64,000 bases of DNA, taken from positions 1,138,723-1,202,722 of the forward strand of contig CM001633.1 of the NCBI GenBank assembly GCA_000309945.1. The letters are read 5' to 3'. The notes under the pieces are model-generated. The model saw nothing but the letters and a program-made list of their open reading frames with translations. It was not told the DNA's origin and searched no databases. The position numbers and the translations under genes are program-made. Of the stretch, positions 27,924 through 31,116 are shown piece after piece; within the stretch, counting starts at the first letter, position 1, and each line of letters begins with the position of its first letter. The stretch is from Leptolyngbyaceae cyanobacterium JSC-12 (lineage in GTDB: Bacteria > Cyanobacteriota > Cyanobacteriia > Leptolyngbyales > Leptolyngbyaceae).

Positions 27924-28718
27924 CTATGCCAAATTGAGGGCTAATTGGAGCTGAAGTTTGGCACCGGTTTGCGGTATAGGTGCAGGATTAGCAGTGACCG
28001 CAGGGCAGTAACGGGCAAAGGTGCATCGCTGGCATTGTTTTCCTTGCTTGGGTTCCCAACCGCGATCGTGGCGCAACCGCATGGCCAGATCTATAATCAT
28101 GCCTTGCACTTCTTCCTGGTGCTCCTGAGTTGCCTGAAACCGAATCTTTTCTCCAGTTCGGAGAAACAACAAGCTGAGGTACTTCAGACTCTGCCGATAA
28201 GTTTGTTCCAGGGCAAGGTAGTACAACCCGATTTGGATATCAATTTCAGATGGTTCGGGCAATTTCATCTCCCGACCAGATTTGTAGTCGATCAACTCTA
28301 ACCCATCCTGCAAAAAATCAATGCGGTCATAGCGCCCAACAATTGTGAACTCTAAATTTTCAACTTGCAGATGCCCCTGAATCTTCCCTTCTACTGCAAG
28401 TGGTTGGTTCATAGCTGGTTGATCTGCAATAAACCGCCAATAGTAGCGCTCCAAGATTTCCTTTCCTTCTATAATCTGACTCTCACTCAACCCCTCCGAG
28501 TGAGTATCCCAACAACGATAAACCCATTGAATGTCAGGAATTGGATGCTGATAGTGCCAATCTCGATGGCATTGAGCAAGGGTCTGATGGAGCGCATTTC
28601 CCAAAGCGGCTGAACCATAAAATTCAGTGCTGGTTAATTTACGCTCATACCGCAAGTAGTAAGCATAAGGACACCGATGATATGCCTGAAGTTTGGTTGC
28701 CGAAATCTGGTAGGTCAT
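27924..28718 (-). CDS. RecB/Cas4-like PD-(D/E)XK nuclease with Fe-S cysteines
   Basis: 264 residues. N-terminal SATKLQAYHRCPYAYYLRY (Cys at about 17), nuclease core with GRYDRIDF (Asp) and ELIDYKSGRE (Asp-x-Lys), QIGLYYLALE helix, and a C-terminal cluster CQRCTFARYC (about 231-240). The single N-terminal and three C-terminal cysteines match the 4Fe-4S layout of AddB/Cas4/RecB-like exonucleases. Likely a DNA end-processing nuclease in the cytoplasm. No CRISPR array or cas gene is nearby, so a CRISPR adaptation role is not supported here. Monocistronic, followed by 126 bp of low-complexity DNA and the DUF2811 gene upstream. Confidence 0.88.
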   Translation of the reverse strand: MTYQISATKLQAYHRCPYAYYLRYERKLTSTEFYGSAALGNALHQTLAQCHRDWHYQHPIPDIQWVYRCWDTHSEGLSESQIIEGKEILERYYWRFIADQPAMNQPLAVEGKIQGHLQVENLEFTIVGRYDRIDFLQDGLELIDYKSGREMKLPEPSEIDIQIGLYYLALEQTYRQSLKYLSLLFLRTGEKIRFQATQEHQEEVQGMIIDLAMRLRHDRGWEPKQGKQCQRCTFARYCPAVTANPAPIPQTGAKLQLQLALNLA

Positions 28719-28843: not shown

Positions 28844-29074
28844 TTAGTTCTGAGCAATTGGGCGTTTGAATAACGCATCCAGATAAATGCGAGACGCCTG
28901 ACGATGGTTCAAGCGTTCGGGGGCAGTTTCGGACTGGTTTTGCAGCAAAAACAGAGACAGTGCAGCGGTGATCACCCGATCTTGGTCCCAGTCAGGACGC
29001 ATTTCCAAATAGTTTCTAAGAGACTCATGCAGAATTTCAGGAACTTCTACCAAAAGACTCACGGTGGTATCCAT
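28844..29074 (-). CDS. DUF2811 family small protein
   Basis: 76 residues, matching the short cyanobacterial DUF2811 family: VSLLVEVPEILHESLRNYLE, then WDQDRVITAALSLFLLQN and a C-terminal SRIYLDALF. The pattern resembles a ribbon-helix-helix/CopG-like fold, where a short N-terminal strand precedes two helices, so a DNA-binding or dimeric regulatory role is possible but unproven. It lies immediately left of the DnaA-box cluster and is transcribed away from it. Confidence 0.85.
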   Translation of the reverse strand: MDTTVSLLVEVPEILHESLRNYLEMRPDWDQDRVITAALSLFLLQNQSETAPERLNHRQASRIYLDALFKRPIAQN

Positions 29075-29634
29075 AGAATTTCAACTCTGGGAGATAAAGA
29101 GGGTACAGTTTCGGTCATTTGCCAACAACAAAACTGCCGCATCTCACAACAAACTTGTGATCTCCATCAGACTCAAAGCCTGGTGGAATGTTGCTTGCGG
29201 AGACTCAGCTATCGACTTATGTTGGTCGCATCATTCTCAGTCGAAATTCATTGCTTGTCAATGTTGCGAAGTGTTGCGAAGCGCTTTAGATCAAAAAAAG
29301 CTTTACGAAAGAATGGGCACTTGAGGGCATTTTCTGTTACTTAACTTTACAAAAACCGGGTTTTCAAGAGTACGGAACTGAAAAAAGTGTGGAGCGATCG
29401 CGGGTGTGGAAAAGTCCGATTCTATCGTTCGGCTTGTGGAAAACGAAGTTAAACATGTGGAAAACGTGTGGAGAGGGTGTGGAAAAAGTCAAATTTCGCT
29501 GTGGAAAGAGTGTGGAATTTGTGGGGAAAATCAAGTCGATTATTAAACTTTGTAAATTTCTGGATGGTTTGCGATCGCAGACCTGGAGTCTTACCAACTA
29601 TCGTTTTTCTGCTCAGGATGTGATAGAGAACTCC
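29075..29634. other. Gene-free region containing candidate replication origin
   Basis: 560 bp without a supportable gene between the DUF2811 and photolyase genes. The left part (29075-29340) shows nothing specific beyond a purine-rich stretch. The right part holds the DnaA-box cluster described separately (29388-29530) and an AT-rich segment at about 29538-29559. Confidence 0.7.
29388..29560. other. Candidate oriC: cluster of DnaA boxes plus AT-rich unwinding segment
   Basis: Four exact TGTGGAAAA sites start at 29405, 29435, 29456 and 29478; relaxed sites (TGTGGAGCG, TGTGGAGAG, TGTGGAAAG, TGTGGAATT, TGTGGGGAA) start at 29388, 29467, 29500, 29511 and 29520. The reverse complement TTTTCCACA is the cyanobacterial DnaA box. 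All nine are in the same orientation. Sites at 29456, 29467, 29478, 29500 and 29511 fall on a strict 11-bp register, putting them on one helix face. Immediately after comes the AT-rich GATTATTAAACTTTGTAAAT (29538-29557), a plausible unwinding element. dnaA and dnaN are not in the window. Confidence 0.75.
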
Positions 29635-31116
29635 TTACTCCTCTACCCTATCTTCCTCATCCTCCTCATTCTTCCTCTCTCCCTTGTGCCCTACCTTCTG
29701 CCGCTGGTAGAGTTCCTTAAACCGTCGTTGCTGCACATTGTGATCAACAATCGCTTCTGGATAGCCGCAGCGATCGCGCTCAGCCGATGGGATTTTGCCA
29801 GACACTAACACTTCTGTATCCACACTCCGCAGTTCTGGAATCCACTCGCGGATGTATTCGGCTTCCGGGTCAAATTTCTTTGCCTGACTGGCAGGATTGA
29901 AAATTCGCAACGGTTTGGGGTCCATGCCGCTGGAAGTACTCCACTGCCAGCCGCCATTATTCGCGGCAAGATCGCCATCAATCAGCTTTTGCATAAAGTA
30001 TTTCTCGCCCCAGCGATGGTCTACCAGCAAATCCTTAGTCAAAAAGCTAGCCACGATCATGCGGCAGCGGTTGTGCATCCAGCCAATTTCCTTGAGTTGA
30101 CGCATGGCAGCATCCACAATGGGATACCCTGTGCGCCCTTCACACCAAGCCTGAAAGCGGTCTTCCCGGTTTTCCCAGGGAAAGTGTTTGAAAACTTGCC
30201 GATAAGGTCCATCTGCCAGTTCCGGGAAAAAATATAGGGCATGCTGGTAAAACTCGCGCCATGCCAGCTCTTGCTGCCAGGTGCGGATGCTATCACGAGC
30301 TTCGTTGCTACGGCTTTGCTCCATTGCTGCCAGAGTAGCAGCCCAGACGGTGCGAATCCCGATCGCGCCAAATTTCAATGCAGCACTTAATTGAGACGTA
30401 CCAGGATAAGCAGGAAAGTTGCGTTGTTCTTGATACTCAGCAATCGCGCGATTGCAAAACTCCTCCAGTTTGACAGATGCGCCTGCTTCACCTGGCTCGA
30501 TCACAAATGGTGCTGTCCAGATAAACCCAAGATCTGGGGCTGTGGGTAACTCAATTGCACCAGCCTGACTGGCAAGTTCCTGCTCCTTTGCCGTTAAGCC
30601 TGTTACCTGAGCCAGGGTATCCAAGGGTTGGCTTTTTTCCTTGCTGCTCCAGTTGCGCCAGAAGGGAGTGTAGACTGTGTAAGGCTGTCCAGAACCAGTA
30701 GTGATGTCCTTCGGTGCGTGCAAGAGTTGATCCCAAAATGGACACGCTTCAATGCCTTGTTCTCGTAACGCAGCAGCAACGGTGCGATCGCGCGCTCTGC
30801 TATACGGTTCTACATCCTGATTCCAAAACACTGCTCTAGCATTAAGTGTTGTCGCCAGATTAACAATCCCTTTTTGAGGAAGTGTCTTCACAATCAATAA
30901 TTGGCTACCTACCTTGGCGTATCCTTCCTGCAATGATTGCAAACAGCCCAGCATGTAGCTCACTCGCACTGGAGCCACATCATCTCGCTGCAAAATGGTG
31001 GGATCGAGACAGAATACACCCACAACCTTTGAACTACGTTGGCGGGCGGCTGCCAAGCCTACATTGTCTGCAAGTCGTAAATCCCGTCGATGCCAAAACA
31101 GAATTAAATCAGCCAT
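29635..31116 (-). CDS. phr: Deoxyribodipyrimidine photo-lyase (class I CPD photolyase)
   Basis: 493 residues. N-terminal Rossmann-like antenna domain (1-130, [20 protein letters not shown]) and C-terminal FAD-binding domain with [56 protein letters not shown] and [20 protein letters not shown]. The Trp residues of the electron-transfer chain are present (in [11 protein letters not shown]-region, GWMHNRCR and GGWQWS). Overall closest in pattern to cyanobacterial 8-HDF-type photolyases. Light-driven repair of UV pyrimidine dimers. The last 20 residues are low-complexity acidic ([12 protein letters not shown]). Monocistronic. Confidence 0.95.

Follow-up and report, generated by a model that had tools for sequence, protein, structure and literature searches.

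Organization of the locus and its box array

The window analysed here is a 64,000-nucleotide stretch from the chromosome of Leptolyngbyaceae cyanobacterium JSC-12, which forms one contig of 5,530,391 bp (5.53 Mb); the window covers chromosome positions 1,138,723 to 1,202,722. Within the window, a 76-aa gene of the DUF2811 family (PF10929, E 8.6e-25) occupies positions 28844 to 29074 on the minus strand. Downstream, and possibly cotranscribed with it, lies a gene for a PD-(D/E)XK nuclease (PDDEXK_1, Cas4-like; 27924 to 28718, minus strand); this Cas4/AddB-like gene has the same direction as DUF2811, and the order of the two is kept in several relatives. On the other side is a DNA photolyase gene (29635 to 31116, minus strand). 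From the start of DUF2811 (29074) to the stop of the photolyase gene (29635), only small overlapping ORFs occur, in agreement with the preliminary description of this stretch as gene-free, and no structured RNA was detected in the window at Rfam gathering thresholds.

The gene-free stretch contains a predicted phased array of DnaA boxes at 29388 to 29530 on the plus strand (chromosome coordinates 1,168,110 to 1,168,252). It consists of nine TGTGG sites, all on the plus strand: four exact TGTGGAAAA sites at 29405, 29435, 29456, and 29478, and five weaker, relaxed sites at 29388, 29467, 29500, 29511, and 29520. The sites at 29456, 29467, 29478, 29500, and 29511 have an exact 11-bp register in common, and a TGGGGAAAA at 29522 extends this register. 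On the far side of the array, an AT-rich element (29536 to 29565) occupies the position of the TTTGCAATTCTTAT element of many other genomes and is diverged here; its tract from 29538 to 29557 is 85% A+T. The exact sites, the single orientation, the register, and the AT-rich tract had all been claimed in the preliminary description and were confirmed. Because the 3' end of the photolyase gene borders the array, a role for the array as photolyase promoter was ruled out.

The window holds six exact sites where 1.16 are expected, a number reached in none of 100 shuffles. Chromosome-wide there are 92 exact boxes, compared to 58 matches for a reversed-pattern control, and when 92 sites were placed at random in 20,000 simulations, four within 73 bp were never seen. 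The clustering of exact sites is not due to chance. At least two exact boxes within 60 bp occur at six places in the chromosome, as counted from the site list: the array, 2.274 Mb, dnaN at 3.050 Mb, 3.249 Mb, 4.527 Mb, and 4.732 Mb. A genome-wide count had been proposed as a check on the array, and by this count it is the densest exact cluster of the chromosome. The assignment of the sites as DnaA boxes appears well supported on sequence grounds. The origins beside dnaN in Synechococcus elongatus and Cyanothece 51142 have the same box, TTTTCCACA/TGTGGAAAA, as well as the 11-bp pairing (2-nt gap) and the spacing of about 22 bp seen in the array.

Between the array and the DUF2811 gene are several elements of a predicted promoter region. 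A TTGACA at 29256 to 29261 (minus strand), conserved in the alignment, is called -35-like on the basis of the sigma-70 consensus, and a putative -10-like GAGAAT, also taken from the alignment, follows 17 bp away at 29233 to 29238 (minus strand). An HLR1-like (RpaB-type) direct repeat, GTTACTTAACTTTACAAA, lies at 29336 to 29353 on the plus strand; it matches the consensus (G/T)TTACA(T/A)(T/A)NN(G/T)TTACA(T/A)(T/A) (PMC11633204) with one mismatch over 18 positions and is thus a predicted RpaB site. Read in the sense of the gene, the order is AT-rich element, array, HLR1-like repeat, TTGACA, GAGAAT, a leader of approximately 150 nt, and DUF2811, and the array is located approximately 127 to 269 bp upstream of the -35-like element. 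DnaA boxes upstream of promoter-like sequence, as looked for in a DnaA-regulated promoter, are present. By these features, the array is assigned to the putative promoter region of the neighbouring DUF2811 gene.

Recurrence at DUF2811 genes and association with dnaA

PF10929 is present in 286 of 291 class genomes. Boxes phased in the same register were found upstream of DUF2811 at 11 of 12 related loci, and the twelfth, from a Rhopalodia endosymbiont, has kept one TGTGGAAAA. For a broader comparison, a strong box was defined as TGTGGA[AT]A[AG] and a strict array as at least two strong boxes on one strand within 60 bp. The 147 loci were chosen non-randomly (the 30 best PF10929 matches, 30 hand-chosen, the 79 next best-listed, and eight further loci of family f35), and the sample leans to strong DUF2811 scorers. 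The 145 loci used exclude L171 and L228, which have less than 500 bp of upstream sequence; G247, which lies at a contig end, was omitted. Alignment A1 omits L022 for no special reason, and alignment A2 comprises 41 proteins (39 of 46 references, the window protein, and L023). The upstream alignment holds near-duplicates, namely L012, which is on the contig of G105 (177,602 bases), and L016, which is identical to L051.

Among dnaA-positive genomes, one or more strong boxes occur in 133 of the 138 regions upstream of DUF2811 and a strict array in 97; a strict array appeared in 0 of 5,520 shuffled sequences (40 dinucleotide shuffles for each region). Boxes in the 138 regions are oriented 317 one way versus 35 the other way, and their spacings peak at 21 (77 cases), 22 (50), 43 (25), and 11 bp (16). 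When an opposing box occurs within 60 bp, it is at 35 to 37 bp in 29 of 30 cases. One or more members of 27 of the 31 families have a strict array; strict arrays are rare or absent in f9 (0/1), f14 (0/5), f15 (0/1), f32 (0/14), and f2 (1/10), and most members of f2, f14, and f32 have one strong box and so fail the strict test. The five dnaA-positive genomes with no strong box at DUF2811 are G201, G065, G218, G014, and G008; in G065 and G218 none was found upstream of dnaN either. DUF2811 itself is absent from the dnaA-positive assemblies G027, G151, and G279, each of 380 to 460 contigs. The recurrence beside DUF2811 in most of the cyanobacteria sampled suggests a second job for DnaA.

The promoter-like elements recur as well. 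The pattern TTGAC[ACT]-N15-19-NANAAT is present in 118 of 145 DUF2811 regions (2 after shuffling), and 57 of the 145 have an HLR1 that departs from the consensus at no more than two positions (3 after shuffling); the controls in both cases were one mononucleotide shuffle per region. Additionally, ATTCTTAT occurs in 56 of 145 regions of 700 bp versus 2 of 145 in one shuffle of 900 bp.

A second DUF2811 gene of the same genome, at 4.732 Mb, has a matching array upstream, which ends in TGTGGGGAAAA as the first array does. On the map, 3.56 Mb separate the two genes; on a circular chromosome the shorter arc is about 2 Mb. Two inverted repeats of 1,459 bp, identical in sequence and with a DDE transposase-type ORF (L007 1154 to 2612 and 7037 to 8495), bracket the second gene, its array, and a UPF0093/CopD-like gene. 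In the congener G105, the corresponding segment is located about 7 kb from the first DUF2811 gene. Because this segment is near the first gene in G105 but relocated here, the array seems to have moved with the gene. In other genomes, second DUF2811 copies have a strong box in 15 of 18 cases and a strict array in 6 of 18.

Comparison with boxes at dnaN provides a link to DnaA, in the few families in which box type was compared. In family f16, the DUF2811 boxes are TGTGGATAA in 8 of 8 genomes, and TGTGGATAA is found at dnaN too (L040 to L045, six genomes; also G063), with G074 mixed. In genome G061 (f30), TGTGGATAA occurs three times at DUF2811 and makes up most of a mixed set at dnaN. In G014 (f15, L182), TTTTCCCCAGG / TGGGGAAAA repeats at 11 bp replace the TGTGG boxes of the DUF2811 region, and the TGGGGAAAA variant is mixed with TGTGG boxes on the dnaN side. 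However, single TGGGGAAAA sites also accompany TGTGG arrays elsewhere, and G014 is therefore weak as a further case of agreement.

Natural absence of dnaA offers a possible second link. In the nine genomes of family f35, dnaA is absent from G150, G295, and G297. The six dnaA-positive members all have at least one strong box at DUF2811, and five have a strict array; in the three dnaA-negative members, which are few, related, and in the case of G297 doubtful, DUF2811 is retained and no strong box lies upstream of it (0/3). The difference gives a Fisher p of 0.012 (6/6 versus 0/3), or 0.036 without G297 (6/6 versus 0/2), uncorrected for kinship. TTGACA is aligned in all nine genomes, and the HLR1-like block is recognisable, in less exact form, in the dnaA-negative ones. 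In G295, the sequence beyond this block does not align, and its boxes may therefore have been lost by rearrangement. Boxes were also looked for at the usual origin genes of f35: among the dnaA-positive members, no strong box was found upstream of dnaN in 5 of 5 genomes examined and no box pair around dnaA in six (G291 without the upstream side of dnaA), although the DUF2811 boxes persist in all six.

Absence of dnaA is also associated with absence of DUF2811. In family f36, both are absent from 15 of 15 genomes, 13 of them near complete, while dnaN is present in 3 of 3 tested; the Cyanobacterium/Geminocystis group has been reported to be without dnaA (PMC7198777). Within the class, 7 of 291 genomes gave no match to dnaA (PF08299); of these, G143, G150, and G157 alone are near complete. 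The joint absence of dnaA and DUF2811 among near-complete genomes of the class has a p of 0.0005, or 0.023 without G143, uncorrected for kinship. The essential dnaN was likewise not found in near-complete G143 and G297, which may reflect an artefact, divergence, or genuine loss, and the absences in these two genomes are therefore doubtful; G143, the first 20 kb of which contain no N, was given little weight as evidence of co-loss. Arrays are kept in G254, G093, and G106 despite the lack of a dnaA match, but these genomes are 62-83% complete, and dnaA may thus be unassembled. One box is kept in G263 (74% complete), where dnaA was not matched either.

Proposed function of the array and alternatives

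The array is probably a DnaA-binding regulatory region of the DUF2811 gene, a reading based on sequence comparison. By this model, DnaA assembly would start at the strong boxes and spread over the weak ones on one helix face in 11-bp steps, and the state of DnaA would decide between activation and repression of DUF2811. The HLR1-like site between array and promoter could add light or redox input through RpaB; photosynthesis genes are reported to be activated when RpaB binds approximately 50-100 nt upstream of the start site (PMC11633204). The array would fit cooperative DnaA assembly on close box pairs. In the experiments reported for domain IV of Cyanothece 51142 DnaA, binding was better to two perfect boxes separated by 2 nt than to two imperfect ones separated by 10 nt, and a single box was not clearly bound (PMC4674748), and E. 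coli DnaA is described as preferring box pairs 2-3 bp apart (PMC11317965). In E. coli and B. subtilis, promoters under DnaA control (nrdA, dnaA, and others) likewise have boxes, often in close pairs, upstream of a gene off the origin. In contrast to these, the array accompanies a single gene family across a bacterial class, is longer and phased, and has an HLR1-like site alongside, and its regulation of DUF2811 is our proposal. The distance of the array from the promoter is rather large for the site of a classical activator or repressor, which counts against regulation.

A wider hypothesis can be offered tentatively, namely that the DUF2811 promoter is an ancestral, near-universal non-origin target of DnaA, that its control keeps dnaA in genomes where replication is DnaA-independent, and that DUF2811 is an unrecognised replication or cell-cycle factor joining the state of DnaA to light via RpaB. 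The second element draws on family f35, since its DUF2811 boxes persist where no strong box was found upstream of dnaN and no box pair around dnaA. In S. elongatus, DnaA binding at oriC has been reported to depend on photosynthesis (PMC6478999). No report of DnaA boxes at DUF2811 or of DnaA control of DUF2811, and no paper on DUF2811 or PF10929, was found among the open-licence papers searched. Regulation by DnaA would give this small uncharacterised cyanobacterial gene its first functional context. The recurrent DnaA-box promoter on one gene family is a defined target, testable with existing dnaA-deletion strains, and could offer a testable answer to the question of which function DnaA has in cyanobacteria whose replication does not require it. 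The gene is essential in S. elongatus 7942 and dispensable in Synechocystis 6803 and Nostoc 7120, for which disruption strains have been reported (PMC7198777).

Alternatively, the array could be a DnaA-titration or nucleotide-switch site that times initiation, with DUF2811 a mere neighbour. E. coli has such sites, datA and DARS (PMC11317965), which are likewise DnaA-box clusters distant from oriC, and many phased boxes beside an AT-rich element and 1.88 Mb from dnaN, the presumed origin, would suit this function. However, a titration site needs no particular gene, whereas the array is tied to the promoter region of one gene family: it stays with both paralogues in this genome, even after relocation, and strong boxes accompany most second copies elsewhere. 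The joint absence of DUF2811 and dnaA from f36 also argues against a mere neighbour, and titration or switching therefore appears unlikely.

Still less probable is that the array is the operator of another regulator, either DUF2811 itself or an OmpR-type response regulator, with sites that resemble DnaA boxes. OmpR-type response regulators can also use 11-bp direct repeats, such as those of the array, and the start of DUF2811 could, by eye only, be a strand-helix-helix DNA-binding fold. Against this stand the agreement with oriC boxes in f16 and the disappearance of the boxes from dnaA-negative f35 genomes that keep DUF2811. Searches of Pfam, of PDB sequences by profile, and of structures by Foldseek found no DNA-binding relative of DUF2811: Pfam returned DUF2811 itself and chance-level matches, the profile matched PDB sequences at E 0.36 and 0.79 only, and all Foldseek matches to an AlphaFold2 model built with 12 sequences (mean pLDDT 58) were meaningless, with E of at least 1.4. 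NCBIfam returned nothing for DUF2811. A ribbon-helix-helix fold, suspected by eye, thus received no support from fold, profile, or family searches.

The origin question and other box clusters

The preliminary description had put forward the array as the chromosomal origin, oriC, with a DnaA-titrating or regulatory cluster as its fallback; the findings support the DnaA boxes well and agree with the fallback, but do not support the origin headline. In this chromosome (G000), dnaN is located at 3,048,301-3,049,467 and the dnaA C-terminal domain at 3,227,659. The approximately 200 bp directly upstream of dnaN contain six TGTGGA sites in both orientations, and the survey in PMC4674748 reports origins beside dnaN in most of its cyanobacteria; an origin prediction for Anabaena is given in PMC4907049. 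Among other genomes with a dnaN match, hand-picked to include dnaA-negative ones, a strict array lies upstream of dnaN in 12 of 28 and is lacking in 16, with short upstream flanks in G001 (168 bp) and G298 (987 bp). One of the 16, G013, has three strong boxes at wider spacing, and in G018 a cluster is found downstream of dnaA instead of at dnaN. The dnaN-side clusters examined are mostly bidirectional, G266 having one orientation only, whereas all boxes of the array point one way; the array is also linked to DUF2811 and lies upstream of promoter-like sequence.

A minimum of GC skew at the array had been named as a sign of an origin. A sample of 20-kb stretches, 60 in all and covering about 22% of the chromosome, gave no replichore pattern (permutation p 0.65); the sampled skew is irregular and uninformative, and none of the array, dnaN, dnaA, and the 4.732-Mb array stands out. 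Irregular GC skew is described as common in cyanobacteria (PMC7198777).

That the array is an origin, main or secondary, is consistent with its being the densest exact cluster, with its phased boxes and AT-rich flank, and with the firing of several origins reported for some cyanobacteria (PMC7198777), but it has a box cluster and no adjacency to dnaN or dnaA, lies upstream of a conserved promoter-like region with its boxes in one orientation, follows DUF2811 genes rather than a chromosome position, being present twice in one chromosome, and competes with a two-orientation cluster at dnaN, while the sampled skew backs none of the four candidate sites. This very improbable reading was rejected because of the genes around the array, the cluster at dnaN, and the matching array at the other DUF2811 gene. 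Box density by itself can mislead when origins are predicted in cyanobacteria.

The remaining places with close exact boxes are near other genes. At 2273909-2273959 (L003 5001-5051), three exact TGTGGAAAA with 21-bp spacing lie upstream of a gene for a sigma-70-family factor with Pfam regions 1.2-4, which from its sequence is a possible further DnaA target. The two exact boxes at 4526803-4526863 (L006 5004-5064) are upstream of a gene for a Pmp3-family membrane protein of 63 aa. Lastly, three exact boxes at 3248663-3248723 (L005 5001-5061) are found just downstream of the GMP synthase gene, and a GTTGGGGTTTTACACAG-type stretch follows two of the three.
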